IMG/VR virus record: IMGVR_UViG_3300047560_000932 | Span: 1-29,767 of that record | DNA length: 29,767 nucleotides | Source of the DNA: a virus | Strand: one strand, 5' to 3' | Shown: positions 12,095-29,767 of the stretch, piece after piece | How positions within the stretch are numbered: the stretch's first letter is position 1 | How the letters are laid out: each line of letters opens with the position of its first letter | Made by a program: the position numbers and the translations under genes | The notes under the pieces: model-generated | Seen by the model: only the letters and a program-made list of their open reading frames with translations | Databases searched by the model: none | Told to the model about the DNA's origin: nothing

Positions 12095-12108
12095 TTAGAG
12101 ATTAGAGA
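12095..12108 (+). promoter_or_regulatory. Tandem TTAGAGA at the start of the giant gene
   Basis: Two adjacent TTAGAGA heptamers run into the ATG; the second one's last base is the A of ATG at 12108. Only the first copy places its AGAG (12097-12100) at ribosome-binding distance, with seven bases between. The upstream TATATAA (12085-12091) is a poor match to a late promoter, so read-through from gene 6 is likely. Confidence 0.4.
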
Positions 12109-15100
12109 TGGCAACAAGAATTAGAACACTAAATTTTCTACCAGAGATTTTCAAAACACCAACTAACGCACAGTTTTTAAGTGCTACACTTGACCAGTTA
12201 GTTGCACAGCCTAATACGAAACGTATTGAGGGATATGTGGGTAGTAAGTTTGGTTATGGTATAAATGCTACAGACAAGTATGTTACTGAACCAACTAAAG
12301 TCCGTACAGATTATCAACTTGATCCAGGTGTTGTTTTCACAAAAGCAAACGATACAACTGCAACAGACTTTATCAGTTATCCTGGTATATTAGATGCATT
12401 GAAATTAGAAGGTTCATTAACAAATGATAATAATCGTTTGTTTACTAGCCAATTCTATTCATGGGATTCATTTACTGATTTAGATAAGATTATTAACTTC
12501 AATCAGTATTATTGGCTTCCATTTGGGCCTGAACGTGTTACTATCACTACCGATATTGTTTACAACACAAACAATTACACAGTACAGGATAGTTCAACTG
12601 GATATTTAATTTCTAGCGATTCACAACCAGCCGGTTCTATTAACCCAACACTAACATTGTTGAGAGGTGGTTCATACACATTCGCAGTTAACCAAGAAAC
12701 TCAATTCTGGATTCAAGGTGAGCCCGGTGTTACTGGCTACAGCGCAACACAACCCAATGTCCAAACACGTGATGTGTTCGGTGTAGTGAATAACGGTGCT
12801 ACTAACGGTGTAGTTACTTTTAACGTACCACAATCAAATGCACAAGATGAATATAATTTCCCTGGAAATAATCTAGTGGGAGTTGTTTCAACATTACCAT
12901 TCAGTCAAGTTAATGGTGCTAGAGTATCAGATATTGCGGGTATTGATGGTATAACTGCATTAGATGGTTTGACAGTCATGTTCTATAACACAGGTATTGT
13001 GAATGAATATGGTTATGTTTCAAAGTTTTATGACACTACGTTATATGATGAAAACGGTGGTGTTCCATACGATGAGAACACAGATTACCCCGGATCGTCT
13101 GTTGATAGCAACAACTTTGAAGGTGGTTTCTACAGCCAAGTAAATGCTAATTTTTATTACATTACTTTAGTGGGTGAGCCAACAGATCCTACAATTGAAT
13201 TGACACCATATGCACCAATTCCAACAAATCAAAAAATAACAGCACAGTATGGTTCTGAGTGGGTTAACAGAAACTTTTATAGAAACGTTGCTGGTGCAAT
13301 ACAATTGATAGGCTACAATAGTTCTATTTTAGATACGCTGTACTACCAAGACGGCACTAGTGCAAATAAAGTTGGTATTATCAAATTAGTAGATAGCAAT
13401 ACATCTAACCAATTAGATATTATCACTACAATTTTAGGTAAAAAACAATATACATCACCTACTGGTGTTGTGTTTACTAATGGATTAAAAGTTGTTTTCC
13501 AGGGTGATATTTTCCCTGAAAGTTACAAGAACGTTGAGTTTTATGTAGAGGGTGTTGGTACTGCTATTGAATTGATACCTGTTGACAGTTTAATCAGTCC
13601 TGGCTTGTTTGAAGCAGGGTCATATATTCCATACGACACAACCAATTATGATATTGGTAACTATGATTCAAATTTGTACGTACCATTAACACCTGATTAC
13701 ATTACCATTGCACGTAATGCAATTAATAAAAATGCATGGTCACGTAGTAATCGTTGGTTCCACATTGATGTTATTAAAGCAACAGCAGAATATAACAATG
13801 ACCCAACATTAGTTACATCATGGGCAACTTTAGAGAACAAAGCAAAACGTCCAATTATTGAATTTTATCCAAACATCCGTATGTTTGATGCAGGTGTGTA
13901 CGGTAAGGCTCCGATTGACTTTATCGACTTCAGAACATCGGATGCATTTACATTAGTTGCAGGACAGACTGAATATTATCCTGATGTTGCAGGTTGGACA
14001 GATTATACTGCAACAATCAATCCTATCACGGGTCCTATTACTGATAGAGTTGCCACACAAGCCGTCTCACTTGTAAATCAAATTATTTTAGATGACACAA
14101 GTGGTTTATATGTAAACGATACGATTTCATTTGATTCATCAATTGGTGGATTAACTTCTGGTGCAACGTATTATATTTTAAGTATCGACGGATTTAGAAT
14201 TACTGTTTCTGGTACTCGTCAGGGAACTGTAGTAGCTCTTACTTCAGAAACACCAGTCTCACCGATCACTACATCTATCTATCCATATACAACTACTATT
14301 GAAGTTGACAATGCTGATATTTTTGGTTTATTCCAAGAAGGTTTTTATATAACAGACAATACAAATCTGTTACCAACAAATGCTCAAATTACTGATGTTT
14401 CAGCGACAACTTCTACAACTACTATTACTGTATCTTGGACACAATCTAACGTAACTATTGGTTCAACGTCTGTTGCGTCACTAGTCACCGCAGATACTAC
14501 AGTAGACAACTATGCATTATTTGACGGCGCACGTATTGTTTTCGCCGCAGATACTGATCCAGAAGTACGTAATAAAATTTATAATGTTCATTTCTCTGAG
14601 GTTGTTGATAACAGTACACTAGTGATTACATTGACTGAAGCGGATGATGGTCTTGTTTTACCAGACGAACAGACTGCGGTGTTCAGAGGATACAACTATC
14701 AAGGTAAAGATTTTTACTTTGACGGCGTAGATTGGTTCGAAGGACAACAAAAGATAACTGTCAATCAAGCACCTAAATTTGATATTTTTGATGCCAACGG
14801 AGTTAGCTTCGGTGATGAAACGGTTTATGTAGGTACATCGTTCACTGGAACTACGTTGTTCAGTTATGGACTCGGTATTGGTGCAGACGATCCAGTATTA
14901 GGTTTCCCATTGCGTTATTCAAGTGTTGATAACGTGGGAGACATTTCATTTGATGTATCATTGAATTCACAAACATTTGATTATGTTTCTGGTCAGAGTC
15001 CTATAACACAAAACATTAATACAGGTTACGTTTATAACTATAACACACGTATTGATTATGTACGTCAATTGGGTTGGCAAACAGCAGTAAGCCCTAGCAT

Positions 15101-18100
15101 CCAATATCAAATATTTGAATTTGACTGGTTTACTGCAACTCCAACATCTACGTTTAATTGTGATATTGCACCAGTAAGTACAACATCTACAAACTGGCCT
15201 GTAATTCAGGTTTATATTAATAACCAATACCAAGATCCAGCTACGGCATTTACATACACAACCACTGACACTACTACAACAGTTTCCATGACTGTTGATA
15301 GCCTAGTTGATACTGTCGTTCAAGTGTTGATATTAAGCGACCAAGTTAGTGAAACTGCATACTATCAAGTTCCTATCAACTTGAACAATAACCCATTCAA
15401 CGATGATGTAACTAATGTTAACATCGGTGATATTCGTGGTCAATATCAAAGTTGTTTCTATAACAACCCAGACACAACCGGTAACGTATTTGGTCCAAAC
15501 AATTATCGTGACCTTGGTAACATGGTTCCTTGGGGAAATAAAATTATTCAAAACAGCGCATCACTTGTATTACCAGGTGCGTTGTTACGTAAACAAGAAC
15601 ACAACTTATTCAATTCATTAGTTTACAACAGTCGCCAGTATATTACTTTTAAAACATTATTAGTAGACACTGTTAATAACACAGACTATACTAGAATGTA
15701 TACTCCTGCACAAATGTTGGATGATGCATTAGACCAGATCACTGCAAGTAAAACTGACAGCGATCCTTTCTTCTGGTCTGACATGGTACCGAGCAAGGCC
15801 GCGTACATTTCTAACACATACTCATTTGCTAATTCATTAGATGTTTCTATCTATCCATTGAGCAGAGTATATAATTTTAAAACAGCTAATTATTATAGCG
15901 TATTGGTTTACTTAATTCGTGACGGTGTAACCACACAGTTAATTTCAGGAGTTGATTATACAGTAAGTGAAGACAGTCCGTCATTGACAGTGCAGACAGA
16001 CTTATTACCAAACGACCAAATTACTGTCAAAGAATATAACCAAACATATGGATCATATGTTCCAAACACACCTACAAAGCTAGGCTTATATCCAGCAACT
16101 ATTCCTAACGTCACGTTAGATAGTGCGTATTCAACACCTACATATTTTATCGTAGGACACGATGGTTCATATAATAAATTATATGGTAACTATGATTCAA
16201 ATACAGGTAGACTAGATGATTTCAGAGATCAGGTTCTACTTGAATATGAGACACGTGTATACAATAACTTAAAATTAAGTAATGTAATTCCTGTTCAAGC
16301 ATATGAAGTATTACCGGGCTTTTTCCGTGACACTGATTACTCATACGATGAAATTTTACAAATATATGGTGAAGGTTTCTTAAACTGGGTAGGTCAGAAC
16401 AGAATCGATTATAAGAGACAAATCTATAACAAAAACAACGATTACACTTATAACTATTCAAACAATGGTAATAAGATAAACAACGGAGCGATACAGCAAG
16501 GTTACTGGAGAGGATTGTATGAATATTACTATGATACAAGCAATCCAGACACTAGCCCATGGGAAATGTTGGGTTATAGAAATCAGCCAACATGGTGGGA
16601 AACACGTTATGGTCCCGCACCGTACACAAGTGACAACTTAATTTTATGGACAGACTTATCTAATGGATATGATTGGAATAACGGTACACCTGTAACTCTA
16701 TCTCAATACATTCGTCCAGAATTATTACAAGTAATCCCAGTAGATAGCAACGGTGATTTGGTTAGCCCGTTCGTTTCTATTTTAGGTAATTATAACGCAA
16801 ACATCTTCCAACGTGATTGGAAAGTAGGTGATGTTGGTCCCGCTGAGTTCTCATATCGCAGAAGCAGTTCATGGCCGTTTGACTTGATGCGTATACTTGC
16901 ATTGACTAAGCCTGCTGAGTTTTATAACTTGGGTGTAGACGTTGACCATTATCAGTATAATGCTGAATTCAATCAATATCTAGTCAACAACAGAAGTCAC
17001 TTGCAAATGAGTGATATCGATGTGTATGGTAATGGTACACCGGTAACAAGTTATATCAACTGGATTGTTGATTACGAAAAACAAGTTGGCGTTGACGCAA
17101 CACAAAACATTCTTGACTTACTAAGTCAATTAGATGTTCGCTTGGTATATCGTTTAGCTGGCTTCAGTGATAAGAATTTATTGAAGTTCTATGTTGAAAA
17201 ATCATCAGCAAACAGCAATAACAGTTCATTACTAATCCCTGATGAGAGCTATCAGGTGTTGTTATACGATAATCAACCGTTTGAGAGAATTGTATTCTCT
17301 GGAGTTGTAGTACAGATTACAGAAAACGGATATAGAGTATACGGTAACTCACAGACTAATGCGTTCTTTAAAGTCTCAGAACCGATTAACAACGGGGATA
17401 AAGAAACCCTCACTGTTGAAAATCTAACAGTAAGATTAGCAAAGTCATATTCATCTAAAACTAAAATTATCCCTTATGGCACTGAGTTTTATTCAGTACA
17501 AGAAGTAGCACAGTTCTTGAGTAGTTACGGAAACTACTTAGTTGATTTAGGTATGAAATTTGACCACGTTGAGAATGGTATCCCAGTAACATGGAATCAA
17601 ATGGTTGCTGAATTCTTATACTGGGCACAGATTGGTTGGGAAGTTGGTAATATAACAACATTGAACCCAGCGGCAACGTTACTAGTCATCGACAAAGATA
17701 GCAACATTGTTCAGCCATTAACGTTGAGACAACAAAACTTTGTATTAAATCAAAACTTGTATCCAATTCAAGCAATCGACTTGTCTATCTTACGTGAAGG
17801 TACTGCATTTACAGCACAACCGTTAAACCAAGGTGATGCAATTAGCTATGGTCAGTTTAATATAGGAAACATCGAACATGGAATCGTGTTCAACAACGTA
17901 ACTCTATTCAATGATGTTATCTATAATTTGACAACAGGCTTACGTCAGAATCGCATTACATTGCGTGGAACTAAGACTGCTGATTGGAACGGTACTGTAG
18001 ACGCATTTGGTTTTATTCTCAACCAAGACAATATCACTGAGTGGAATAAAGAAGTTAAATACACCAAAGGCTCTATCGTTAAGTACAAAAACAAATATTG

Positions 18101-21100
18101 GACTGCTCTCACAATCATTCAAGCAAAAGAAGTATTTGATGAACGTGATTGGAAACAAACAGACTATAACGAGATTCAAAAAGGATTGTTACCTAACAGT
18201 TCAACACGTTCATATGAATCAACATTGTATTATGATGTAAACAAGGCAAACTTAGAAAATGATGCAGACCAACTAAGTTTCAGCTTAATTGGATATCGTC
18301 CTCGTGACTATCTTGCTCTTGCTGATTTAACAGATATTACGCAAGTCAATGTTTATAAAAACATGATTAAGAATAAAGGTACGCTTGATGCGGCTAGCGC
18401 ATTCAAGGGTGCAACATTACCACAAGGTGGTATTGAGTATGATATTTACGAAAACTGGGCAATCAAATCAGGTGAATTTGGTGGTGTATTAAACAGCAAC
18501 TTTGTTGAATTTAAATTAAATGAATCACTAATGACTGGTAACCCAAGTATTGTTAGTTTGACAGATGGTGTTTACACTGACGGTGCCCAACAGGAAGTAC
18601 CATTGTATTCATTGTTTAACTATGGAAGACCAATCAACAACCCTGATGTTCTACCTACAATTTCAACATCAACCCCTACAACATTATTACCGACAGCAGG
18701 TTATGTAAACTTCAATGACGTTAAAATGTCAAGTTATTTCTATTCTGGTTTGCCTACAGCTAGAGATGCAAGTGGTAAATTAATACCTATATCAAATTTC
18801 TATGTTCGTGACTATACATGGTTAGCAAATTACTTAGAAGAATGGAAAGTTTTCACACCTAAGTCATTGGGTTCAATTGTAAACGTTAAAAATAATTTAA
18901 ACGGCACCGTAACAGTAACATTCAGTAACGCACATAACTTAACTAAGTACCAGTTGTTTGGTATTGTTAATTTTGATTCACAAGTGGATAACTACTATCT
19001 AGTATCTACAGTGGTAGACCAGTATAAAGTAATCATTAATTTAGCATTGCCTCCAGAAACACTAAACATCACTGGTTTGGGTGTTGGCTTCAGTATGCAA
19101 AATCAACGTGTTGCTACACCAGCAAACATCATTGATTTACCTTTATTGGATAATGAATTCAATAAAGTTAAAGTATGGGTAGACGAAAACGATGACGGTT
19201 CTTGGGCTGTATATCGCAAGAGTTTAAATTACACATACAATACTGAAATCACAAATAATACAAGTACTACATTTGGTAGTGCAGTTGCGTACACAACCGC
19301 AATGAATTATTTGATCGGTGACAGCGGTGAAGGAAAAGCATATCGTTACACATACGATACTACTTCAAGCACTTATGTAATTGACCAAACATTAAGTGGA
19401 AGCACTTCATTTGGTTCAACAATTACATACTCAGATGACATATTTGTTGTGTCTGAACCAACTAGTGGCTCACCTAAAGTATATGTTTATCAATTAGTTT
19501 CAACAACAAAAGTTAATAATATTGAACCATATCAAACAATTAACGCACCCGGTGGCGTAACTAATTGGGGTAGTGCTACTGCACTATCAGGTGATAAGAA
19601 TTGGTTATATATTTCTGACATTGACAACAACAATGTTTATGCATATCGCAAAAACAATTTCAATGTTGATGCAGGAAACTTTATTGTAGGAAATAACTAC
19701 ACGATTGTCAGTGAGGGTACAACAGATTTTACATTGATAGGTTCAACAAGCAATGATGTAGGTACATCATTTAAAGCTACAGGCGTCGGCACTGGAACAG
19801 GTGTAGCAACAGATACCACTTATGTAAATCAAGCTATCATAAATGTAGGAAGTTCTTCAGGTGATGCGTTTGGTAGCTCTATAACTACTGACTATTATGG
19901 TGATACTGTAATTATTGGTGCCCCATACGAAAACTTTGATGTAAGCACTGAAAATTACGGATATGCATATGTATTCAATCGTTTGGTGCAAAACTTTGAA
20001 GTTCAGTTTTCTGGTAGCGCATATATCCCACAACAATTTATATTGTCTTGGACTCCAGATAATGCGTCATCAAAAACTGCTTCTGCATACACCGGCAATT
20101 ACTTAACATTAGACAACGTAACTGATTTATCAGTTAACGATCCGATTATATTTACAGGAACACCATTTGGTGGCGTATCATTGAACACCGTGTATTACAT
20201 CACTGACATAAGCGGAAATGATATTAGCTTCTCAACTACACGCAATGGCACAGACTTTGTGTTGTCTGGTTCATCAGGCACAATGACAGTTGTACCACAA
20301 ACATCACCATTAACTATATCAGTAAATGGAACCGTTATTGCAGATAATAAGTACGCAGTCGACGGCTCAACATTGTACATTTATAATAATGTCAACTCAA
20401 CACTTAAAGCCGGTGATATTTTAACCGTCAGTGGTTCTGAGATTGTATTAGCACAAACACTAGACAATGGCTTAACACCAAGAGTAGGTGTTGAATTTGG
20501 TACAAGTATCGACACTAATATGTATGCAAGTGAAATTCTTGTAGGTGCCCCGTTCGAACTCAATAGCGAAAACGTTGAAGGAGCAGTACATCGTTTCACT
20601 AACGGTGGTGATAGTTATGGTATCATTATTGGTACATCTGAATGTAATATAACAACACAACAACATATTTTATTAAATGGATATGAAGTTCAACTAGAGC
20701 CTGGTAATGCTGATAGCGTTGCACAAAATATCAATCTTGCAAAAGTTCCTAATATTGTTGCAAGTAGCCTAAACGGAAAAATTGTAATCACATTAGTTGA
20801 TTCTACTCTAGCTGTACCAAACAAGAAATTGTCATTGACTGCGGTTAACGGTTCAACTTTATCTGAGTTGGGAGTTAACTTATATACAGAAACACAAACT
20901 ATTATTTGTCCTCATACAAATGGCCCAACACAATTTGGTTCAGTTGTCAAATTTAACGAGTTTGGTTCATTCGTAGTAAGTGCCCCAACTGCAATTCGAT
21001 ATGCCCCAACAACGTTTGATTTTACTGACGATGAATTAGATAATGATACGATTTTTGACAATAATACTACGCAGTTTGTAGATTCATTTGTAAATGCTGG

Positions 21101-24100
21101 TGCAGTTTACATGTTTGATTATCTAGCAATTTATAACGAAAGCGTAAGTAACCCTGGCGCATTTGTTTACGCACAGAGTACAAACGATATTACACTTGAC
21201 TATGGTTCTCAACCTCTATATGGTAAAGCATTAGACTTTAATGCAAATCGTGTGACGATAGGTACACCTAACTTTAGACCAGCTTATGTAGATGGTCAAG
21301 TAGTTACATACGTAAGCACAAGTACTGAACCTGATTGGGCTGTATATAGAAGTTCTAGCCCGGTAGTTGATATCAATGGCATCAACAACATTCAATTATT
21401 CAGCGCAGAAACAAACAATACGTTAGAAAATCTAGATTATATTGACCCACTTCAAGGTAAAATCTTAGGTGCAGTAAGAGAAAACATCGATGTAATTTCT
21501 AACGTTGACCCTGCAAGCTATAACAGTGTCAATGCAACACAAACTGGCTTAATCTGGGGTGCAGATAAAGTTGGTCAGATTTGGTTCAACACAACCAATA
21601 CACGTTTTGTCAACTACCACCAGAATGATGTAGTTTACAACAGTAAGTATTGGGGTCGAGTATTCCCAGGAAGTGACGTATCTGTTTATTCATGGATAAC
21701 AAGCAATGTTCCTCCTATCCAGTATCAGGGTCCAGGAACACCTTATAGCACAACAGATTATACTGTTCAAGGTATTGTGAATGCTGAAGGAACAATTGTA
21801 CCTGTATACTTCTATTGGGTAAGAAATACAAATATTATCTTTGAAAAAGAAGGTAAAACATTAGCTGACAGTATCATTCAATCATATATTGCTCAGCCAC
21901 AAGCTAGTGGTATTAGTTATTTTGCCCCATTGTTACCAAACACATTTGGTTTATACAACTCACAAGAGTTCATAAACGCTAATGATTCAGTATTGCAGAT
22001 TGGTTTCAAGACAGGTGAAAATGACGATGTTGGTCATAGTTCATTCAGTTTGATTCGTGCAAATTATGCAGATGATTTCTTACCTGGAATACCAACATCA
22101 AGTTCAATCTCATATGGACATCCTGGAACAGCAAATGCCACAATAATTCAAACACCTGAATCATTATATGATAGATTACTAGACAGTATGTGTGGTGTGG
22201 ACGAGTCAGGGGCAGTCGTACCTAACCCATTCTTACCAAAAGCAGTACAGTATGGTGTGTTAGCTAGACCAAGACAAAGTTTCTTCATTAATCGCTATGG
22301 TGCATTGAAGAATTATTTAGAATATGCTAATACAGTAATGGCATTATATCCTATCACTGAAATTAGAAATCCAGTATTCTTAGATAAAGTCGGAGAAATT
22401 AATCCTTCTAATGGATTACCGTTCTACGACACACCAGCATATTGGAGTTATATTAACTGGTGGGCACCTGGATATGACAATAATACCAAGTCTGCACTAC
22501 AAGTTCCAATCTATGCTGATTTGTCAACATTAACTGTAAATGCGGGAACAATCGTGTCCGTAGCACAAAACGGCAATGGCAAACAAGAAACATACATTTC
22601 TAACACGGACGGATCATGGACTAGAATTGGTTTAGAAAACGGTACAATCGAGTTTAGTTCTAATCTGTGGGATTATGCTACAGCACGTTTAGGATTTGGT
22701 GATAACTTCTATGACACTACACCGTATGATGAATATCCTTCACAAGAAACACGTGACATTATTCGTGCGTTGAACGAAGAAATCTATACCAACGAATTAT
22801 TAATTTATCGTAACAAGAGTTTAATCTTGTTGTTTGAATACATTCAGTCTGAAACAATTGAATCACAAAATTATTTACCATGGTTGAACAAAACTTCCTT
22901 CATTGACGTTTCACACACAATTCGTGAACTACGTCCTATTGAAGTATTCCGTTCAGATAACCAAACATTCTTGGAAGGATACATGAATGAGATAAAGCCA
23001 TACCACGTGGTTATTAAAGAATTCTTATTCAAGTATACTGGAACTGATGTTTATGAAGGTGACATAACTGATTTTGATTTACCATCACAATACAATACAA
23101 CAACTCAAACATTTATTTCACCTGCGTTGGTTTTTGCTAATCCAAGCAGTGACAATCAATATTTACCAACTGATCCAATCTGGCAGACAGGTCCGTACAA
23201 TCAATGGTTTAATAATTATGGATTAAGTGTAGTCGGTCAAAATAACTATCCTATTGCACTACTAACATCGTATATGGGATTGACAACAAACGTCATGTTT
23301 GTTGACAACGCAAACGGTTTCCCTGTATCAGGTATTGTAACAATCGGTACAGAACAAATTTCTTATACTAGCGTAGATTTAGCCAATAATGCATTGTTGG
23401 GCTTAACACGCGGTGTGGGTGAGACAGAAGCGCAAATACATATTCCGGGTGAACAATTAATCACTGATTTACCTGCTGTTCTCGTATTGAACGGTGGTCG
23501 CGGATACACTGAGCCACCAAAGGTCACTGCATATATTGATACAACACTATATCCTGAACCTAGAGTTGCGGCACAGTTAGAACCTATCATGGGTGTTGAT
23601 AGTGTTATTGGTGTAAATGTAATCAACCCGGGTGAGGGATATGTTGTATTACCAGAAATCATTATCGATCCTTCAATAACAGTAACATTCAATAGTACTC
23701 AAGTTAATACGTTGACTAGCACAGTTGAACTAGATGTACCGTTACTACAAACAGGTGATTTAGTAATCTACAACCCTACTACTGGTTCAGAACAAATAGG
23801 TGGTTTATTACCGGGACAAAAATATTATGTCAATGTGTTAGAAACAGCACCTGACACAATTATTGCTTTCTATAATAATTACTACCATTCAATATACGAC
23901 CAAGATAGAATTCCATTGTTATCTACTGGTACTGGACAACAACAAATTAGCGTAGGTGCAGTTGCAAGTTGTGTAACTACAGCAGTTCCGGTTCGTGAAA
24001 ACAACATCACATTAAGATTTGACAGAACATCATATTCTTCACAACTCGCTGACTGGGCTCCATCTGGATTCTATGGTGCGTTCTACGCAGGTGATTATGC

Positions 24101-27100
24101 TGATGACCAGATTTTCTCATCATCAAGTGTTAGATTATTCAGCACTGACCCACCAGTCGGTGGCATTCTTGCTGGTCAAGTTAATGGAATTACTGCATCT
24201 GCACAAGGTGGAACATTCCAGATTCTTGATGTTGCAAATCAGCAAACACTAACATGGTCTTCACGTACTAGAAATACTATTCAAACATATGGCCCAGCTT
24301 CATTGTATCCAAATACAATTCGTATTAATCCAAGTGCAGGTGGTGCAGAAGTAGCAGGACAGATTGGTTCTACTATTGGTTTCTATGTTGGTATGCCAAT
24401 TAAATTTGTTGGTGCTATACCAGTCGGTAGTCCAATTCAACCTTCAACCTCAGCCGAGGACGTAATCTACTATGTTAAATCGTTGGTTCAGTTACCAAAC
24501 CTTGATACTAGTGAGTTGGAAGACACTGGCTTTACAATTTCAGATACAGTTGACGAAAACGGTAATCCAGGCTCTACATTAGATTTACTTGTGTCAGCAT
24601 CAGTGCCTACAGCAGGATTAACTCTATACGTAGGTAATTTAACTAACACAGCATTGATGACTATAAACTATTCTGGTTTAAGAAATGCGTCAGCAACATC
24701 ATCAACTAACAATGCGGTCACAGTTGATTTAACAGTGACTGGTCAAAACGGCACTACTGGATTCTACACAGGACTTCCTATATTATTTGTAGGCAATGAG
24801 TTCGGTGGAATCATTGAAAACAAAGTATATTATGTCAATGCAGTTATAGATAAAACATCGTTTACAATGACTGCCGATAACAGTCCTAAGATTGTTACTT
24901 GTACTGCAACAGATAGTGCAACCGATATAATTTCATGCTCATCTACGATTGGCTTAAATGTTAACGATCCAGTTATTTTTAATGATATGGGTATTAACGG
25001 TGATGCAGTAAATGACTTTGGTGGCATTATTAGCGGAACTACATATTATATTAAAGAGATTGTTTCTAACGGATCTATAAAATTAAGTACTACTGTTAAT
25101 GGATCGTTATTCAACATTACCTCGACTGTAACTGCTGGCAACGGCACGTTTGCTCCTATGTTGGTACAAACAGATGTGGTTCAATTGACTAGTGCTACTG
25201 GAGCAATGACAATAAATGTTGCCATCCCAATTAGCCCAGGTCAAATCAATGGTCAACAGTTCACATTGTATGGACAATCAGGTCCATATGTAGGTGTACA
25301 AGGTACTGTATCTGAATTATTTGACAGACAAATTACATCTACATTAGCATACAACAATAGAGTATGCTTATCTACTATTGGCGGCGGCACAACAAATATC
25401 TATGCAAACATGGAATTCAATGTTTCAGAAGATATCGGTGGTTTAACAACTACAGGTGGCCCATACACAGTAACTGGTCTTGGAACTACTGAAATTAATA
25501 TTAGTTACGTAAGTGCAGTTGACGATTGGTTAACTGTCACTCCTACAGTAGAATATACTGATACGACAGCGGCATTATACGAAGGTATGCCTTTGTATTT
25601 CACAGGGCAATCACTAGGTGGTGTATTATTAAACACAGTTTATTATGTGTATGATATTGGTACAGGTCCTAACGCTGGTAAAATTAAATTATCAGAAGAT
25701 GTTTCATTGAGTACTGTCTTTGCTATTAATGGTAGCGAAGGTGGAACTATGGTAGGTACTGGAGAAACATATATTGAAGTAGCAGATACACTATCTGATG
25801 AAAAAGCAATATCAGATACAACATCATTCTTGCAGGCTGAGGGTACACCTGCAGAATTTAATGTTGCTTCAATATTAGGTGGATATACTGTTTCTGTTAC
25901 TACTGCTGGCACAAACTATGCAATAAACAACATTATTACAATTTCTGGAACAGATTTAGGCGGCACAAGCCCTACTAATGATTTATTATTGACTGTGTTA
26001 ACAGTTGACTCTACTGGTGGTGTATTAACTGGTATTGCTAATGGAACTCCTGCAGGAGCAGAAAACAAATATTACTTGAAGGTAGTTAATGAAGACCAAG
26101 TAGAAGTATATAGTGATCCTAACATGCAAATTCCTGTAAGTGGTCAAAACTTCCCTTATGTGGGAGCAACTACTACAACGGCTACTGCAATTGACGGTTC
26201 TACCGAAAGAATTACAGTAACAAGTTCTGCTGACTTCAATCTTAATGATCCAGTAGTATTCACAGGTGATGTGTTTGGTGATGTTGTGTTGGCACAGACT
26301 TATTATATTTTAACAAAACCAACAAGTACTACAGTAACAATCTCTGAAACTATTGGCGGCAGCCCAGTTAATTTATCTACTGATACTGGAACAATGACAA
26401 TGGCTAAGGCAGGTGATTATGCTGTGTTACCTCAGCCATTCTACTTTGATAGTAGCATTGTTAAGTACAACAACCGCGTGTATCAATGTATTATCAGTAA
26501 CAACGATAGCGAATTTATTTTCGGTAAGTGGGAATTATTGAATTCTGGTGACCGTCGTCTAAATGCATTAGATAGAATCATGGGATATTATCAGCCTACT
26601 GTTAATATGCCTGGCGTAGACTTGACGCAGTTGGTCAATGGAATTACATATCCAAACAGTACCTATAAAGGTAATGCGTTTGCACCAGCAGACGAATTCA
26701 CATTAGATACAATCTTAACAGATCAACCATTTTATCCAACAGGATTGAATTTGACAAGTGTAGTATGGGACGGTACAACATATATTTCCGTTGCAAATAC
26801 AGTAGACTATTCTTCTATATTATTCAGTGAAGATACTAATTCTTGGGTAATTGATAGAATTGCTAACGAACCAGTAGCTGTAACTAGCATCGTTGAAGTA
26901 GATGGTCAGTACATAATTACAACTAATAATAATGCTACTCCGATTCTAACAAGTTCAGATGGAGTCACTTGGACAGATTTACCAGCTTTAGCAGGTAAAG
27001 GTTATAGTCTAAATAAAGTTTCATATCACGATGGTTTGTATATTGCTGTTGGTAATGTGATATTAACATCACTTGACGCAATCACATGGACAAAAGCATA

Positions 27101-29767
27101 TGAATTTGCATCAGGTTTGAATAATGTGTTATATGACGTTTCGTGGCAAAACACTGGATTCACTGGATTCATTGCAGTTGGATCAGGACAAATCTATAAT
27201 GGTAGCAACATTAATGATGTTTCTATTGTTCGTTATAGCTATGATGGTGAAGTTTGGTACGATGTTACTATCTATAATGAAACCCGTGGCTTTAACGCAA
27301 TTGCAGGAAACCAATATGGTATGGCTGTAGTTGGTAACGGAGGTCTAGTATACACTAGTTACAACGGTGTAACTTGGTTCTTGCAAACTAATGCAGGTAG
27401 TGATAATTTAAATGAAGTAATTTGGGATGAAACTAATTCTCAATTCGTAGCAGTCGGTGACAACGGTAGCATCCAAGTCGGTGACGTATCTGGATCAACA
27501 TGGACATCAGAAACATCAGGCACCACAGAAAATCTACAAGATGTAATTTACAATTCTACTGCAGGATTATATGTAACGGTTGGCGACAACAATACTGTTA
27601 TTAAGAGTGAGGATGCTGTCACTTGGTACGATTCAGCATTGTTTGAACAACCCCCAACATTCTACAATATTCAAGGAGATGCATTTACTGCAGGCTATGG
27701 CCCAGAAGAATTAGTTCCAGGTGTAGTGACAGATTCAGTAATGATGACTGTTACAACACGTCCAGGAACAAACTGGGATGCTACTGTTTATCAAAACGTA
27801 GGTTATAACGTGGTTTCCAGAGAATTAACTCCTACATCAGGTTCACAAACTGAATATAGTTTCTTGTACCAAGTAACTACCCCAGCACAATTGGGTGTGT
27901 TTATTATTGATTACACTACTGGATTGAGTACTAGTATCTACGAAGGGGTAGACTATTCAGTTGATTGGATTAACAAGATTGTTATTTTGAATAATCCTGT
28001 TACATTTATTAACGAAACAGTATGCGACAAAGTCCGCATCGATGTGTATGAAGTTGGTAATGGAGATCAATTAGTAAAAGCAAACACAGAAACAGATCCT
28101 ATCAGATTGAATACTACGACCGGGTTCCAAGAAATCGTCACTAGTGCTAATTATACTGCTGACATTTGGCAGGGGTCTGGTGTAATCAGACCAGCAACAG
28201 AACCATTAGAAGCTATTGCTATTGCTACAAATAGCGTCACTGATGCAATTACTTGTGAAGATGTAAGCAATTTCATATTGAATGGGGCAATAACATTCAG
28301 TGGAGAAGTATTTGGTAATATCGTAGAGGATCAAGTTTACTATGTAAAATCAATTAGTTATGTTTCAAATAGAATCACTGTCTCAGAAACGTTTAATGTT
28401 GGCACAGGAACACCAGGCTCAACATTTGAATTGTCTACTGACACTGGTTATATGAGAGCAATCATACAGATTGGTGCAGGCGCAGTATGGACTGATCCTA
28501 TTGTTTACCACAATGGCGCTAAATTGGTGTTGGGTAATATCGCTACAGTAACTAGAACTAAATCTGGTACTAACACGGTGACTACTAACACTACTGGTAA
28601 CCTAACAGTTGGCTCACCAGTAGTCTTTAGCGACACAATTTTCGGCGGAGTGATTGTACCACAACAAGTTTACTACATTGAAACTGTTGTTGACAACAAT
28701 GAATTTGCAATTTCTGAAACACAATATGGACCTCGTTTAGTATTGACAGATGCGACCGGTGGTGCGTCATTTGTGACGAATGATTATGCAATTAGTCTTG
28801 CAAGCAATGGTATAAACGCTTCTATTGTGTTCTCTGCACAATATGATAATTCAGTTGATTATTTGGTATATAGTTTATTCGGTGAGACAGTACCAACACA
28901 GTATGGTTACACAATTCCTGAAGCACAGATATTTGTGGGTAATGGAATTCGTGCAGAGTTTGCACTAACAAATTTTGTTGGTGCGGCAAATCCAGACAAT
29001 GCGATTGTTGAAATCGGTGGTGTTCGTCAAACAAAAGCAAAGTACAACATTGATCCATTGACAAACAGTATCTTATTCTATAGTCCTCCTGCAGACGGAG
29101 CAGAAGTTGTAATCACATCATATAATTTAACTGACCGTCAATATTTCTCAACACAGTATGGCATTACTGGTTCGTCTGGGTCAAATCTGTTTACACTCAC
29201 AGTTGGAACAACTACACATACAGTTGCAACATATGACCAAGATACTCCAACAGCAATTACATATGACCAAGACACACCGTCTGTTGTTGCGTTTGACGAA
29301 GAATTGAACTACTTGACATTAAGTTCGGGTGATACTAGTGGATTAGAAATTAATTTCCCAATTGTATTCCAAGCACCAACGATCGGTGGAATCAACGCAG
29401 GTCAGATTTACTATGTAATTGAAATTATTGATTCAACTAACTTTGTAATAAGTGACCAAGTTGACGGTACTCCGTTTGTTGTTTATTCTGATACTGGTAC
29501 AATGACAGGTGTTGTAAACGGACTAACAGTTGCAAATATTGTAAATATCAGCAACGCAATTGAACAGCCATCATCTATCGCTGTGTCTGATACATCAAGT
29601 ACTGGAAACTTAATTACATGTAATACTACTTCTAATTTGAACGTAGGACAATTAATTACATTTAAGACTCCTGTAGTAACTGCTGGATCATTCACAATCG
29701 GTCTTGTTTACCAAATCACATCATTGGGTACAACAACTCAACTTCAATGGAATACTATTGCAGGTAC
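12108..29767 (+). CDS. Giant modular baseplate/tail structural protein in gp7 position (3' end missing)
   Basis: One frame without a stop for 5,886 codons to the window edge. I read it line by line: no frameshift or stop was found. The N-terminus has LPEIFKTPTNAQFLSATLDQ. A cupredoxin-like pattern lies at about residues 182-251 (LLRGGSYTFAVNQ, FWIQ, VNNGATNGVVTFNVP). A core at about 1170-1560 has VPNTPTKLGLYPATIP, VGHDGSYNKLYG, WEMLGYRNQPTWWETRYGPA. A second core (about 3200-3640) has FYWVRNTNIIFEKEGKTL, YDRLLDSMCGVDESG, ARPRQSFFINRYGALKNYLE and YMNEIKPYHVVIKEF. I recall these as parts of very large structural proteins of marine T4-like phages. Between and after them sit two beta-propeller candidates, three carbohydrate-binding-like motifs and a repeated YY module (entered separately). 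T4 gene 7, the wedge arm, follows gene 6, so this is positionally gp7, but T4 gp7 has only about 1,032 residues and I see no clear identity. It probably forms peripheral wedge or receptor-facing structures. The total length is unknown. Confidence 0.75.
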   Translation, partial: MATRIRTLNFLPEIFKTPTNAQFLSATLDQLVAQPNTKRIEGYVGSKFGYGINATDKYVTEPTKVRTDYQLDPGVVFTKANDTTATDFISYPGILDALKLEGSLTNDNNRLFTSQFYSWDSFTDLDKIINFNQYYWLPFGPERVTITTDIVYNTNNYTVQDSSTGYLISSDSQPAGSINPTLTLLRGGSYTFAVNQETQFWIQGEPGVTGYSATQPNVQTRDVFGVVNNGATNGVVTFNVPQSNAQDEYNFPGNNLVGVVSTLPFSQVNGARVSDIAGIDGITALDGLTVMFYNTGIVNEYGYVSKFYDTTLYDENGGVPYDENTDYPGSSVDSNNFEGGFYSQVNANFYYITLVGEPTDPTIELTPYAPIPTNQKITAQYGSEWVNRNFYRNVAGAIQLIGYNSSILDTLYYQDGTSANKVGIIKLVDSNTSNQLDIITTILGKKQYTSPTGVVFTNGLKVVFQGDIFPESYKNVEFYVEGVGTAIELIPVDSLISPGLFEAGSYIPYDTTNYDIGNYDSNLYVPLTPDYITIARNAINKNAWSRSNRWFHIDVIKATAEYNNDPTLVTSWATLENKAKRPIIEFYPNIRMFDAGVYGKAPIDFIDFRTSDAFTLVAGQTEYYPDVAGWTDYTATINPITGPITDRVATQAVSLVNQIILDDTSGLYVNDTISFDSSIGGLTSGATYYILSIDGFRITVSGTRQGTVVALTSETPVSPITTSIYPYTTTIEVDNADIFGLFQEGFYITDNTNLLPTNAQITDVSATTSTTTITVSWTQSNVTIGSTSVASLVTADTTVDNYALFDGARIVFAADTDPEVRNKIYNVHFSEVVDNSTLVITLTEADDGLVLPDEQTAVFRGYNYQGKDFYFDGVDWFEGQQKITVNQAPKFDIFDANGVSFGDETVYVGTSFTGTTLFSYGLGIGADDPVLGFPLRYSSVDNVGDISFDVSLNSQTFDYVSGQSPITQNINTGYVYNYNTRIDYVRQLGWQTAVSPSIQYQIFEFDWFTATPTSTFNCDIAPVSTTSTNWPVIQVYINNQYQDPATAFTYTTTDTTTTVSMTVDSLVDTVVQVLILSDQVSETAYYQVPINLNNNPFNDDVTNVNIGDIRGQYQSCFYNNPDTTGNVFGPNNYRDLGNMVPWGNKIIQNSASLVLPGALLRKQEHNLFNSLVYNSRQYITFKTLLVDTVNNTDYTRMYTPAQMLDDALDQITASKTDSDPFFWSDMVPSKAAYISNTYSFANSLDVSIYPLSRVYNFKTANYYSVLVYLIRDGVTTQLISGVDYTVSEDSPSLTVQTDLLPNDQITVKEYNQTYGSYVPNTPTKLGLYPATIPNVTLDSAYSTPTYFIVGHDGSYNKLYGNYDSNTGRLDDFRDQVLLEYETRVYNNLKLSNVIPVQAYEVLPGFFRDTDYSYDEILQIYGEGFLNWVGQNRIDYKRQIYNKNNDYTYNYSNNGNKINNGAIQQGYWRGLYEYYYDTSNPDTSPWEMLGYRNQPTWWETRYGPAPYTSDNLILWTDLSNGYDWNNGTPVTLSQYIRPELLQVIPVDSNGDLVSPFVSILGNYNANIFQRDWKVGDVGPAEFSYRRSSSWPFDLMRILALTKPAEFYNLGVDVDHYQYNAEFNQYLVNNRSHLQMSDIDVYGNGTPVTSYINWIVDYEKQVGVDATQNILDLLSQLDVRLVYRLAGFSDKNLLKFYVEKSSANSNNSSLLIPDESYQVLLYDNQPFERIVFSGVVVQITENGYRVYGNSQTNAFFKVSEPINNGDKETLTVENLTVRLAKSYSSKTKIIPYGTEFYSVQEVAQFLSSYGNYLVDLGMKFDHVENGIPVTWNQMVAEFLYWAQIGWEVGNITTLNPAATLLVIDKDSNIVQPLTLRQQNFVLNQNLYPIQAIDLSILREGTAFTAQPLNQGDAISYGQFNIGNIEHGIVFNNVTLFNDVIYNLTTGLRQNRITLRGTKTADWNGTVDAFGFILNQDNITEWNKEVKYTKGSIVKYKNKYWTALTIIQAKEVFDERDWKQTDYNEIQKGLLPNSSTRSYESTLYYDVNKANLENDADQLSFSLIGYRPRDYLALADLTDITQVNVYKNMIKNKGTLDAASAFKGATLPQGGIEYDIYENWAIKSGEFGGVLNSNFVEFKLNESLMTGNPSIVSLTDGVYTDGAQQEVPLYSLFNYGRPINNPDVLPTISTSTPTTLLPTAGYVNFNDVKMSSYFYSGLPTARDASGKLIPISNFYVRDYTWLANYLEEWKVFTPKSLGSIVNVKNNLNGTVTVTFSNAHNLTKYQLFGIVNFDSQVDNYYLVSTVVDQYKVIINLALPPETLNITGLGVGFSMQNQRVATPANIIDLPLLDNEFNKVKVWVDENDDGSWAVYRKSLNYTYNTEITNNTSTTFGSAVAYTTAMNYLIGDSGEGKAYRYTYDTTSSTYVIDQTLSGSTSFGSTITYSDDIFVVSEPTSGSPKVYVYQLVSTTKVNNIEPYQTINAPGGVTNWGSATALSGDKNWLYISDIDNNNVYAYRKNNFNVDAGNFIVGNNYTIVSEGTTDFTLIGSTSNDVGTSFKATGVGTGTGVATDTTYVNQAIINVGSSSGDAFGSSITTDYYGDTVIIGAPYENFDVSTENYGYAYVFNRLVQNFEVQFSGSAYIPQQFILSWTPDNASSKTASAYTGNYLTLDNVTDLSVNDPIIFTGTPFGGVSLNTVYYITDISGNDISFSTTRNGTDFVLSGSSGTMTVVPQTSPLTISVNGTVIADNKYAVDGSTLYIYNNVNSTLKAGDILTVSGSEIVLAQTLDNGLTPRVGVEFGTSIDTNMYASEILVGAPFELNSENVEGAVHRFTNGGDSYGIIIGTSECNITTQQHILLNGYEVQLEPGNADSVAQNINLAKVPNIVASSLNGKIVITLVDSTLAVPNKKLSLTAVNGSTLSELGVNLYTETQTIICPHTNGPTQFGSVVKFNEFGSFVVSAPTAIRYAPTTFDFTDDELDNDTIFDNNTTQFVDSFVNAGAVYMFDYLAIYNESVSNPGAFVYAQSTNDITLDYGSQPLYGKALDFNANRVTIGTPNFRPAYVDGQVVTYVSTSTEPDWAVYRSSSPVVDINGINNIQLFSAETNNTLENLDYIDPLQGKILGAVRENIDVISNVDPASYNSVNATQTGLIWGADKVGQIWFNTTNTRFVNYHQNDVVYNSKYWGRVFPGSDVSVYSWITSNVPPIQYQGPGTPYSTTDYTVQGIVNAEGTIVPVYFYWVRNTNIIFEKEGKTLADSIIQSYIAQPQASGISYFAPLLPNTFGLYNSQEFINANDSVLQIGFKTGENDDVGHSSFSLIRANYADDFLPGIPTSSSISYGHPGTANATIIQTPESLYDRLLDSMCGVDESGAVVPNPFLPKAVQYGVLARPRQSFFINRYGALKNYLEYANTVMALYPITEIRNPVFLDKVGEINPSNGLPFYDTPAYWSYINWWAPGYDNNTKSALQVPIYADLSTLTVNAGTIVSVAQNGNGKQETYISNTDGSWTRIGLENGTIEFSSNLWDYATARLGFGDNFYDTTPYDEYPSQETRDIIRALNEEIYTNELLIYRNKSLILLFEYIQSETIESQNYLPWLNKTSFIDVSHTIRELRPIEVFRSDNQTFLEGYMNEIKPYHVVIKEFLFKYTGTDVYEGDITDFDLPSQYNTTTQTFISPALVFANPSSDNQYLPTDPIWQTGPYNQWFNNYGLSVVGQNNYPIALLTSYMGLTTNVMFVDNANGFPVSGIVTIGTEQISYTSVDLANNALLGLTRGVGETEAQIHIPGEQLITDLPAVLVLNGGRGYTEPPKVTAYIDTTLYPEPRVAAQLEPIMGVDSVIGVNVINPGEGYVVLPEIIIDPSITVTFNSTQVNTLTSTVELDVPLLQTGDLVIYNPTTGSEQIGGLLPGQKYYVNVLETAPDTIIAFYNNYYHSIYDQDRIPLLSTGTGQQQISVGAVASCVTTAVPVRENNITLRFDRTSYSSQLADWAPSGFYGAFYAGDYADDQIFSSSSVRLFSTDPPVGGILAGQVNGITASAQGGTFQILDVANQQTLTWSSRTRNTIQTYGPASLYPNTIRINPSAGGAEVAGQIGSTIGFYVGMPIKFVGAIPVGSPIQPSTSAEDVIYYVKSLVQLPNLDTSELEDTGFTISDTVDENGNPGSTLDLLVSASVPTAGLTLYVGNLTNTALMTINYSGLRNASATSSTNNAVTVDLTVTGQNGTTGFYTGLPILFVGNEFGGIIENKVYYVNAVIDKTSFTMTADNSPKIVTCTATDSATDIISCSSTIGLNVNDPVIFNDMGINGDAVNDFGGIISGTTYYIKEIVSNGSIKLSTTVNGSLFNITSTVTAGNGTFAPMLVQTDVVQLTSATGAMTINVAIPISPGQINGQQFTLYGQSGPYVGVQGTVSELFDRQITSTLAYNNRVCLSTIGGGTTNIYANMEFNVSEDIGGLTTTGGPYTVTGLGTTEINISYVSAVDDWLTVTPTVEYTDTTAALYEGMPLYFTGQSLGGVLLNTVYYVYDIGTGPNAGKIKLSEDVSLSTVFAINGSEGGTMVGTGETYIEVADTLSDEKAISDTTSFLQAEGTPAEFNVASILGGYTVSVTTAGTNYAINNIITISGTDLGGTSPTNDLLLTVLTVDSTGGVLTGIANGTPAGAENKYYLKVVNEDQVEVYSDPNMQIPVSGQNFPYVGATTTTATAIDGSTERITVTSSADFNLNDPVVFTGDVFGDVVLAQTYYILTKPTSTTVTISETIGGSPVNLSTDTGTMTMAKAGDYAVLPQPFYFDSSIVKYNNRVYQCIISNNDSEFIFGKWELLNSGDRRLNALDRIMGYYQPTVNMPGVDLTQLVNGITYPNSTYKGNAFAPADEFTLDTILTDQPFYPTGLNLTSVVWDGTTYISVANTVDYSSILFSEDTNSWVIDRIANEPVAVTSIVEVDGQYIITTNNNATPILTSSDGVTWTDLPALAGKGYSLNKVSYHDGLYIAVGNVILTSLDAITWTKAYEFASGLNNVLYDVSWQNTGFTGFIAVGSGQIYNGSNINDVSIVRYSYDGEVWYDVTIYNETRGFNAIAGNQYGMAVVGNGGLVYTSYNGVTWFLQTNAGSDNLNEVIWDETNSQFVAVGDNGSIQVGDVSGSTWTSETSGTTENLQDVIYNSTAGLYVTVGDNNTVIKSEDAVTWYDSALFEQPPTFYNIQGDAFTAGYGPEELVPGVVTDSVMMTVTTRPGTNWDATVYQNVGYNVVSRELTPTSGSQTEYSFLYQVTTPAQLGVFIIDYTTGLSTSIYEGVDYSVDWINKIVILNNPVTFINETVCDKVRIDVYEVGNGDQLVKANTETDPIRLNTTTGFQEIVTSANYTADIWQGSGVIRPATEPLEAIAIATNSVTDAITCEDVSNFILNGAITFSGEVFGNIVEDQVYYVKSISYVSNRITVSETFNVGTGTPGSTFELSTDTGYMRAIIQIGAGAVWTDPIVYHNGAKLVLGNIATVTRTKSGTNTVTTNTTGNLTVGSPVVFSDTIFGGVIVPQQVYYIETVVDNNEFAISETQYGPRLVLTDATGGASFVTNDYAISLASNGINASIVFSAQYDNSVDYLVYSLFGETVPTQYGYTIPEAQIFVGNGIRAEFALTNFVGAANPDNAIVEIGGVRQTKAKYNIDPLTNSILFYSPPADGAEVVITSYNLTDRQYFSTQYGITGSSGSNLFTLTVGTTTHTVATYDQDTPTAITYDQDTPSVVAFDEELNYLTLSSGDTSGLEINFPIVFQAPTIGGINAGQIYYVIEIIDSTNFVISDQVDGTPFVVYSDTGTMTGVVNGLTVANIVNISNAIEQPSSIAVSDTSSTGNLITCNTTSNLNVGQLITFKTPVVTAGSFTIGLVYQITSLGTTTQLQWNTIAG
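12651..12860 (+). other. Cupredoxin-like beta module near the giant protein N-terminus
   Basis: Residues about 182-251. The order 'LLRGGSYTFAVNQ - FWIQGEPG - VNNGATNGVVTFNVPQ' follows a pattern common in marine phage and bacterial surface proteins: rGxxYtF, FwI, a vTNNGxxxGtvtFtVP strand. The usual copper-binding Cys/His of true cupredoxins is absent, so a structural role is inferred. The family call is from memory of the pattern. Confidence 0.45.
14074..14250 (+). repeat. YY module, isolated early copy (R1)
   Basis: Contains LYVNDTISFDSSIGG, then YYILSIDGFRITVSGTRQGT (YY at 14169). It matches the consensus 'L-x-V-N-D-P-I-x-F-T-G-x-x-F-G-G-V ... Y-Y-I-x-x-I ... F-x-I-S' found again near 20.2 kb and throughout the 3' third of the gene. 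It lies about 6 kb before the next copy. Confidence 0.7.
18045..18195 (+). other. Carbohydrate-binding-like motif 1
   Basis: Residues about 1980-2029 of the giant protein. YTKGSIVKYKNKYWTALTII followed by FDERDWKQ has the spacing of CBM5/12-type chitin/cellulose binding modules (G-x-x-V-x-Y-x-x-x-x-Y-x-A ... W). It is a short pattern, so the sugar-binding role is an inference. Confidence 0.45.
19665..19803 (+). other. YTIVSEGTTDFT module inserted between propeller blades 3 and 4
   Basis: The pattern GNNYTIVSEGTTDFTLIGST ... FKATGVGTGTGVA is a small glycine/threonine-rich unit that I have seen repeatedly in tail proteins of environmental phages (form: YxIxSxGTTDFTxIGA ... FTATGxGxGTGxA). Its function is unknown to me. 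Its place exactly between two FG-GAP blades suggests it is displayed on a loop. Confidence 0.55.
20098..20292 (+). repeat. YY module inserted between propeller blades 4 and 5 (R2)
   Basis: The best-formed copy: LSVNDPIIFTGTPFGGVSLN, then VYYITDISGNDISFSTTRNG and a GTMTV end (FGG at 20166, YY at 20193). It is followed by a second insert, ISVNGTVIADNKYAVDG to about 20445, before blade 5 resumes at 20496. Confidence 0.78.
21603..21716 (+). other. Carbohydrate-binding-like motif 2
   Basis: Residues about 3166-3203: YHQNDVVYNSKYWGRVFPGS then YSWI. It has the same 'N/G-x-V-x-Y-x-x-x-Y/W-x' layout as motifs 1 and 3, but is the least typical of the three. It opens the second conserved core of the giant protein. 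Confidence 0.33.
23283..23690 (+). other. IGTEQISY/TRG module followed by two GGxGY-type units
   Basis: FPVSGIVTIGTEQISYTSV with GLTRGVG matches a recurrent phage pattern 'fPxsGxixIGxExIxYtg...LxGvtRG'. It is followed by VLNGGRGYTEPPKVTAYI and VINPGEGYVVLPEIIID. These are two consecutive 'GGxGYxxxPxV' beta units, also typical of repetitive tail proteins. Together they mark the switch from the conserved core to the repeat-rich 3' third. Confidence 0.55.
23715..26405 (+). repeat. YY module cluster 1 (six copies, R3-R8)
   Basis: The YY pairs are at 23823, 24468, 24828, 25044, 25641 and 26301. Clear copies include LPILFVGNEFGGIIENKVYY, LNVNDPVIFNDMG ... YYIKEI, MPLYFTGQSLGGVLLNTVYY and LNDPVVFTGDVFGDVVLAQT. 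R3 and R4 are divergent. The unit is about 60-80 residues: an entry strand, a V/I-x-F-x-G turn, F/I-G-G, the YYI/V strand, then a strand ending in 'S/T-x-x-x-G-x-x ... TGTMT'. Spacers carry other units (for example TTAGTNYAINNIITISGTDL at about 25.9 kb). I know no named family for it, though similar units occur in other phage tail proteins. Confidence 0.78.
26442..26560 (+). other. Carbohydrate-binding-like motif 3
   Basis: Residues about 4779-4817: SSIVKYNNRVYQCIISNNDS, then FGKWELL. This is the closest of the three to the CBM5/12 pattern 'x-x-V-x-Y-x-x-x-x-Y-x-C/A ... F-x-x-G-x-W'. It is followed by ALDRIMGYYQPTVNMPGVDL, a linker that leads into the second propeller. Confidence 0.45.
26751..27650 (+). 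other. Seven-bladed Asp-box (BNR/YCF48-like) beta-propeller
   Basis: Seven evenly spaced Asp-box-like motifs are seen: ILFSEDTNSW, ILTSSDGVTW, ILTSLDAITW, VRYSYDGEVW, VYTSYNGVTW, IQVGDVSGSTW, VIKSEDAVTW. Their tryptophan codons lie at 26844, 26970, 27087, 27255, 27375, 27501 and 27624, mostly 117-126 bases apart (168 once). The strand before each reads like 'F/Y-I-A-V-G', for example GLYIAVGN, GFIAVGSG, QFVAVGDNG. This is the sialidase/YCF48/VPS10-type blade pattern. No sialidase catalytic arginine triad is apparent, so binding or a structural role is more likely than enzymatic activity. Confidence 0.78.
28218..29767 (+). repeat. YY module cluster 2 (four copies, R9-R12), cut by the window edge
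   Basis: Copies R9-R11 have their YY at 28338, 28671 and 29409. R12 near 29709 has a single Tyr and is interrupted by the end. Examples: ITFSGEVFGNIVEDQVYYVK, VFSDTIFGGVIVPQQVYYIE, IVFQAPTIGGINAGQIYYVI. The module ends of R8 and R11 share an 18-base string with one mismatch (26382-26399 and 29490-29507). This suggests fairly recent duplication. The array probably continues beyond the window. Confidence 0.75.
29229..29288 (+). repeat. 30-base tandem repeat coding TYDQDTP units
   Basis: Two copies starting at 29229 and 29259 encode TYDQDTPTAI and TYDQDTPSVV. A decayed third unit, AFDEE, follows. The period is exactly ten codons, and the first 15 bases of each copy are identical. It forms a short acidic linker between modules R10 and R11. 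Confidence 0.85.

Follow-up and report, generated by a model that had tools for sequence, protein, structure and literature searches.

A giant gene in the gp7 position of a phage baseplate operon and its family

The baseplate operon and its giant gene

The window analyzed here is the whole of IMG/VR record IMGVR_UViG_3300047560_000932, a linear fragment of 29,767 bases that carries a baseplate wedge operon of T4 type ending in a giant open reading frame (Table 1). The original prediction had placed gene 6 directly before the giant, and the gp6 assignment is borne out by both the PHROG 10646 match and the T4 gp6 profile match. The C-terminal half of the gp5-like hub protein is long and rich in Ala, Ser, and Val; an antisense open frame of 347 aa within the hub gene (6877-7920, minus strand) is probably spurious.

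Table 1. Genes of the window and segments of the giant protein
Feature	Coordinates	Strand	Evidence or distribution
Virion structural protein, 5'-truncated at the start of the contig	1..1866	+	phrog_12050 over residues 360-517
gp53-like baseplate wedge subunit, 105 aa	1860..2177	+	phrog_7145 E 1.4e-24; PF11246 Phage_gp53
Virion structural protein, 897 aa	2178..4871	+	phrog_11190
gp5-like hub protein with injector OB domain, 1,101 aa	4874..8179	+	phrog_13211 E 6.6e-35; PF04717
gp25-like baseplate wedge protein, 149 aa	8203..8652	+	PF04965, phrog_43
gp6-like baseplate wedge protein, 1,123 aa	8709..12080	+	phrog_10646 E 1.7e-256; hhalign T4 gp6 E 3e-5
Giant virion protein at the gp7 position, ≥5,886 aa, 3' end past contig	12108..29765	+	phrog_10938; relatives
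Giant: conserved N-terminal segment, ~160 residues	12108..12587	+	common to RaK2, 121Q, PA5oct, Atu_ph07, CM1 homologues
Giant: inserted beta domain, possibly cupredoxin/YHYH-like, approximate limits	12600..13007	+	weak Foldseek laccase matches
Giant: conserved core 1, residues 831-2162	14598..18593	+	common to whole family
Giant: weak motif of CBM5/12 type (chitin-binding type 3), within core 1	18039..18113	+	PF02839 E 0.016, below cut-off
Giant: FG-GAP repeat (beta-propeller type), between cores	19851..19976	+	PF14312 E 9e-5, at cut-off
Giant: conserved core 2, residues 3014-3709	21147..23234	+	common to whole family
Giant: lineage-specific C-terminal arm, largely ~80-residue YYV/I-type beta modules	23685..29765	+	module HMM

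The giant frame starts with ATG, runs for 5,886 codons without a stop and is still open at the contig end at position 29767, while the other two forward frames contain 398 and 675 stops over the same span. Since the record is a linear fragment that ends inside the gene, the 3' end is missing and was sought in relatives; an exact 37-base search of IMG/VR from near the contig end found no overlapping record. The encoded fragment has a mass of 644 kDa and a pI of 4.2, is rich in Thr, Val, Asn, Gly, and Ser, and is poor in Cys. Searches of the window for the T4 late-promoter motif TATAAATA found no occurrence, and those for tandem DNA repeats found nothing relevant.

In the closest relative (G001), which shares 68% amino acid identity with the window protein, the complete giant is 6,463 aa long and its stop lies ~580 codons past the window's contig end. 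In each of 12 long IMG/VR relatives, of which 60 kb were read as three adjoining 20-kb stretches, the giant is one uninterrupted ORF of 5,702-7,756 aa, and among 32 records scanned whole, 31 have the matching frame open over 5,705-7,757 codons. The longest member found, G019 (L132-L134), is a single ORF of 7,756 aa, with a product of about 840 kDa when scaled from G001. Between the window and G001, the differences per site are 0.47-0.54 at codon position 3 and 0.12-0.25 at position 2 in every 600-codon block, i.e., about two- to fourfold higher at position 3 in all blocks, and therefore the whole giant frame is under protein selection. The original prediction of at least 5,886 stop-free codons that read as protein throughout is thus confirmed by the ORF listing, by the stops in the other frames, by the single ORFs of the relatives and by the codon-position pattern; the stop and the following genes, which it had proposed to look for beyond the contig, were located in the relatives. 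The giant is a real, intact single gene with a product of roughly 6,500 aa.

The order of the operon is conserved in the 12 long relatives: a structural gene, gp53-like (~105 aa), a second structural gene (~700-1,070 aa), the gp5-like hub, gp25-like (149-150 aa), gp6-like (~1,125 aa) and the giant, followed by a protein of 206-212 aa and then one of ~400-650 aa. Gene names in these relatives are given by size and position, and in a few of them (G010, G023) one of the genes is split, truncated at the end of the stretch or missed. In a larger set of 157 loci that show the start of the longest frame, where gp6 was checked by BLAST, gp6 is the next ORF upstream of the giant in 155; in both exceptions (L286 and L294) the giant frame itself is interrupted. 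The order gp53-structural-gp5-gp25-gp6-giant is also found in phages RaK2 and 121Q, where small genes lie in between, and PA5oct, Atu_ph07, and Phosso have the order gp25/small gene-gp6-giant.

Downstream of the giant, the relatives encode separate proteins of ordinary size (206 aa, ~410 aa, and ~317 aa). The ~410-aa protein has a Peptidase_G2/IMC domain, a self-cleaving chaperone of the kind that fibre proteins carry. The 206-aa protein and the following ones are homologous to PA5oct gp357-gp360, all four of which are marked ESI-MS/MS in their record; gp358 is labelled by the depositors as T4-like gp10. About 3 kb past the giant, G001 (L112, L113) has a long co-directional cluster with radical-SAM/SPASM proteins, which stands likewise behind the giant in Atu_ph07 and Phosso and for which modification of surface sugars or peptides is a possible role. 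In RaK2/121Q-type phages (L341, which is phAPEC6, L005, and L006), a gene for a ClpA-like ATPase lies on the opposite strand directly behind the giant.

Conserved cores and the lineage-specific arm

The anatomy of the giant protein (Table 1) was drawn from conservation across close and distant members. In the N-terminal part, the inserted beta domain weakly resembles laccases in Foldseek (probability no higher than 0.30), and some BFVD homologues are named YHYH-domain proteins; the model of this N-terminal part has low confidence over much of the first 120 residues, and its Foldseek comparison with PDB gave no baseplate match. Profile searches of PDB with the three conserved blocks yielded nothing beyond a weak chitin-binding match, to chitinase A1 (E 0.018), which falls elsewhere in the core-1 alignment than the CBM5/12-like motif. 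Core 2 was modelled reasonably well with AlphaFold (residues 2985-3760; mean pLDDT 74.8, pTM 0.43). A Foldseek search of PDB with this model found no counterpart, and in BFVD it strongly matches only proteins of other phages, including the Atu_ph07 structural protein. A search of the giant against NCBIfam gave nothing. The functions suggested for the modules are weakly indicated by matches in sequence and predicted structure, namely CBM at E 0.016, FG-GAP at the cut-off, and cupredoxin at a Foldseek probability of at most 0.30.

Beyond residue ~3,760 the sequence is specific to the long clade. The YYV/I module HMM gives 13 matches in the window protein, ten of them within the C-terminal arm, and 10-17 matches per long-clade protein, but none in the giants of RaK2, 121Q, PA5oct, Atu_ph07, Phosso, or SCTP-2. 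The HMM seeds were taken from the window protein, so that its own matches are partly there by construction, and one seed (residues 304-384) is doubtful, for which reason the match at residues 301-386 is not counted as evidence. Self-BLASTP of the giant detected no internal repeats, although the motif HMM did find them. The extra length over the cultured relatives is largely this C-terminal module array.

A family of oversized baseplate-position proteins

Two slices of the giant match the profile of PHROG 10938 (3,324 positions, "virion structural protein") with E values of 4.6e-159 and 1.7e-96, and smaller slices agree. By tblastn, homologues were found in 84 cultured-phage records, and the IMG/VR scans yielded relatives of the C-terminal part in 24 contigs and relatives of a middle part in about 200. 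The scan of GTDB genomes returned two distant MAG contigs only, which yield no host inference. In PA5oct (gp355, 3,857 aa), Atu_ph07 (gp180, 4,449 aa), Phosso (294, 4,555 aa), 121Q (gp582, 3,323 aa), and RaK2 (gp465, 3,326 aa), the homologue likewise stands directly behind gp6; phAPEC6 gp245 (3,323 aa) follows gp244, a baseplate wedge protein, and the SCTP-2 giant (3,807 aa) stands after a gene for 3,096 aa. These members share with the window protein the N-terminal segment and both cores at 24-33% identity. They differ in length, with 3,323-4,555 aa in the cultured giants against 5,702-7,756 aa in the close clade of the window, and in the YYV module array, which is found in that clade and undetected in the cultured giants. 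The window protein is a larger member of this widespread, known family of oversized baseplate-position proteins of jumbo phages (phrog_10938). PHROGs files the family under "head and packaging"; this label is misleading, since the gene follows gp6 in nearly every phage examined, which points to the baseplate.

The phAPEC6 protein was found in virions by mass spectrometry (381.88 kDa, 17 unique peptides; PMC7247149), and PA5oct gp355 is marked ESI-MS/MS in its record; the product of the giant family is therefore a virion protein. Presence in the virion has been seen for these two orthologues only, and the clade of the window is known from metagenomes.

T4 gp7 occupies the same slot, after gp6 in the wedge operon, and the giant, like gp7, is flanked by gp6 on one side and by further wedge/fibre genes on the other. 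The length of 1,032 aa quoted for T4 gp7 in the original prediction is correct, against at least 5,886 aa for the giant, and the two have no detectable profile similarity: the best hhalign match to T4 gp7 had a probability of ~2%, whereas the gp6 positive control was found. Because no profile similarity to gp7 was detected and the models of the N-terminal part and core 2 matched no known baseplate structure, the gp7 label rests on position and not on demonstrated homology.

A comparable arrangement occurs in the cyanophage ACG-2014e (Kyanoviridae), where gp25 and gp6 are followed by a protein of 3,495 aa (gp085, a candidate VrlC) and then by a separate gp8. A domain weakly similar to gp7 lies at the N-terminus of this giant (E about 1e-4); with the window family the protein has a beta module in common, but no detectable core. 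T4 gp7 is absent from cyano- and pelagimyophages, where it is apparently substituted by VrlC, downstream of which lie tail fibre and radical-SAM genes; in pelagimyophages the radical-SAM cassettes belong to a "host recognition cluster" behind VrlC (PMC7029224). Thus, a very large protein at the place of gp7 is an established pattern.

Proposed role of the giant and alternative readings

We consider it likely that environmental jumbo myophages of a large lineage use the giant as a baseplate-wedge protein where T4 has gp7. The N-terminal part and the two cores would pack on the gp6/gp25/gp53 wedge, presumably with one giant chain per wedge and six per virion, a stoichiometry borrowed from T4 gp7. 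The FG-GAP, CBM-like, possible cupredoxin/YHYH-like, and YYV beta modules may project outward as a long arm that would touch the host surface or seat the fibre proteins of the adjoining downstream genes. The C-terminal part is probably a surface or receptor-contact arm grown by repeated ~80-residue beta modules, and the extra size over cultured relatives would have been gained mainly by this array rather than by fusion with gp8-gp12.

The original prediction had gone further and proposed that the wedge arm, short-fibre and receptor-binding functions, which T4 splits among gp7-gp12, are fused in one chain. Its description of one giant gene where T4 has gene 7, with a conserved core joined to surface-type modules, holds, but the fusion found no support in the profiles, in the downstream genes or in ACG-2014e, and we regard it as improbable. 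The size of the giant and the surface-type modules of its C-terminal part fit a fusion, as does the failure to find a gp8 Pfam match in ten long relatives, PA5oct, or 121Q and to find any tail-collar domain; some of the T4 outer-baseplate proteins are therefore missing or unrecognisable. The slice-by-slice HHpred examination that had been suggested was run as a profile-profile comparison of T4 gp6-gp12 with 600- and 250-residue windows along the whole giant. It recovered the gp6 control (E 3e-5), but no segment of the giant matched gp7, gp8, gp9, gp10, gp11, or gp12 (best probability 13.7%); weak matches to the N-domains of gp9/gp10 occur in these genomes at a distance from the giant, in other genes. 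Separate genes 7-12 of normal size downstream had been named as the observation that would speak against fusion, and ordinary-sized structural genes, including homologues of the PA5oct protein labelled gp10, do follow the giant in the relatives, just as gp8 stands apart beside the giant of ACG-2014e. A narrower version, in which the giant stands in for gp7 and gp8 alone, i.e., the whole wedge periphery, with the fibres encoded separately, is also unlikely, though slightly less so: gp8 was not found in the ten long clade records, PA5oct, or 121Q, and core 2 is a conserved domain without a recognised fold. Against it, gp8 may be too diverged, given that even the cyanophage gp8 is under the Pfam cut-off, and the role of gp8 could be played by the conserved 206-aa protein encoded directly behind the giant. 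The most far-reaching reading, to which we give little credence, is that a ~700-kDa giant (up to ~7,750 residues in a relative) would act as wedge arm, replace gp8 and also carry an array of receptor-contact modules, six such chains forming most of the baseplate periphery, with no dedicated short fibres.

It is also rather doubtful that the giant is a tail or baseplate appendage merely placed in the wedge operon and no component of the wedge. The protein is acidic (pI 4.2), modular and beta-rich, gp7 homology is undetectable, and the related phAPEC6 has unusual whisker-like and hairy tail appendages (PMC7247149); the near-invariant linkage to gp6 (155 of 157 loci), the two cores kept across the family and the large gp7-replacing protein at the same place in cyanophages and pelagimyophages argue for the wedge instead. 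That the frame is an assembly error or a read-through of several genes can practically be dismissed, in view of the 12 long contigs with one uninterrupted ORF of 5.7-7.8 kaa each and of protein selection over the whole frame, even though the frame is broken in two of the 157 relatives, by an in-frame stop in L286 and by frame shifts in L294, and L019 also has in-frame stops. The broken frames extend over 5537-22435 in L286 and 1-12151 in L019, and in L294 (6117-17286) the giant appears as three slightly overlapping colinear ORFs; these breaks are either sequencing errors or a natural split.

The preferred reading of a wedge protein at the gp7 place describes a gp7-position part of the contractile tail that would have grown six- to sevenfold over its T4 counterpart by taking on surface modules in repeats, with its location and its cores remaining fixed. 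For the conserved core 2 no counterpart was found among solved structures, and the giant family is common, with core-alignment relatives in at least 587 IMG/VR stretches.
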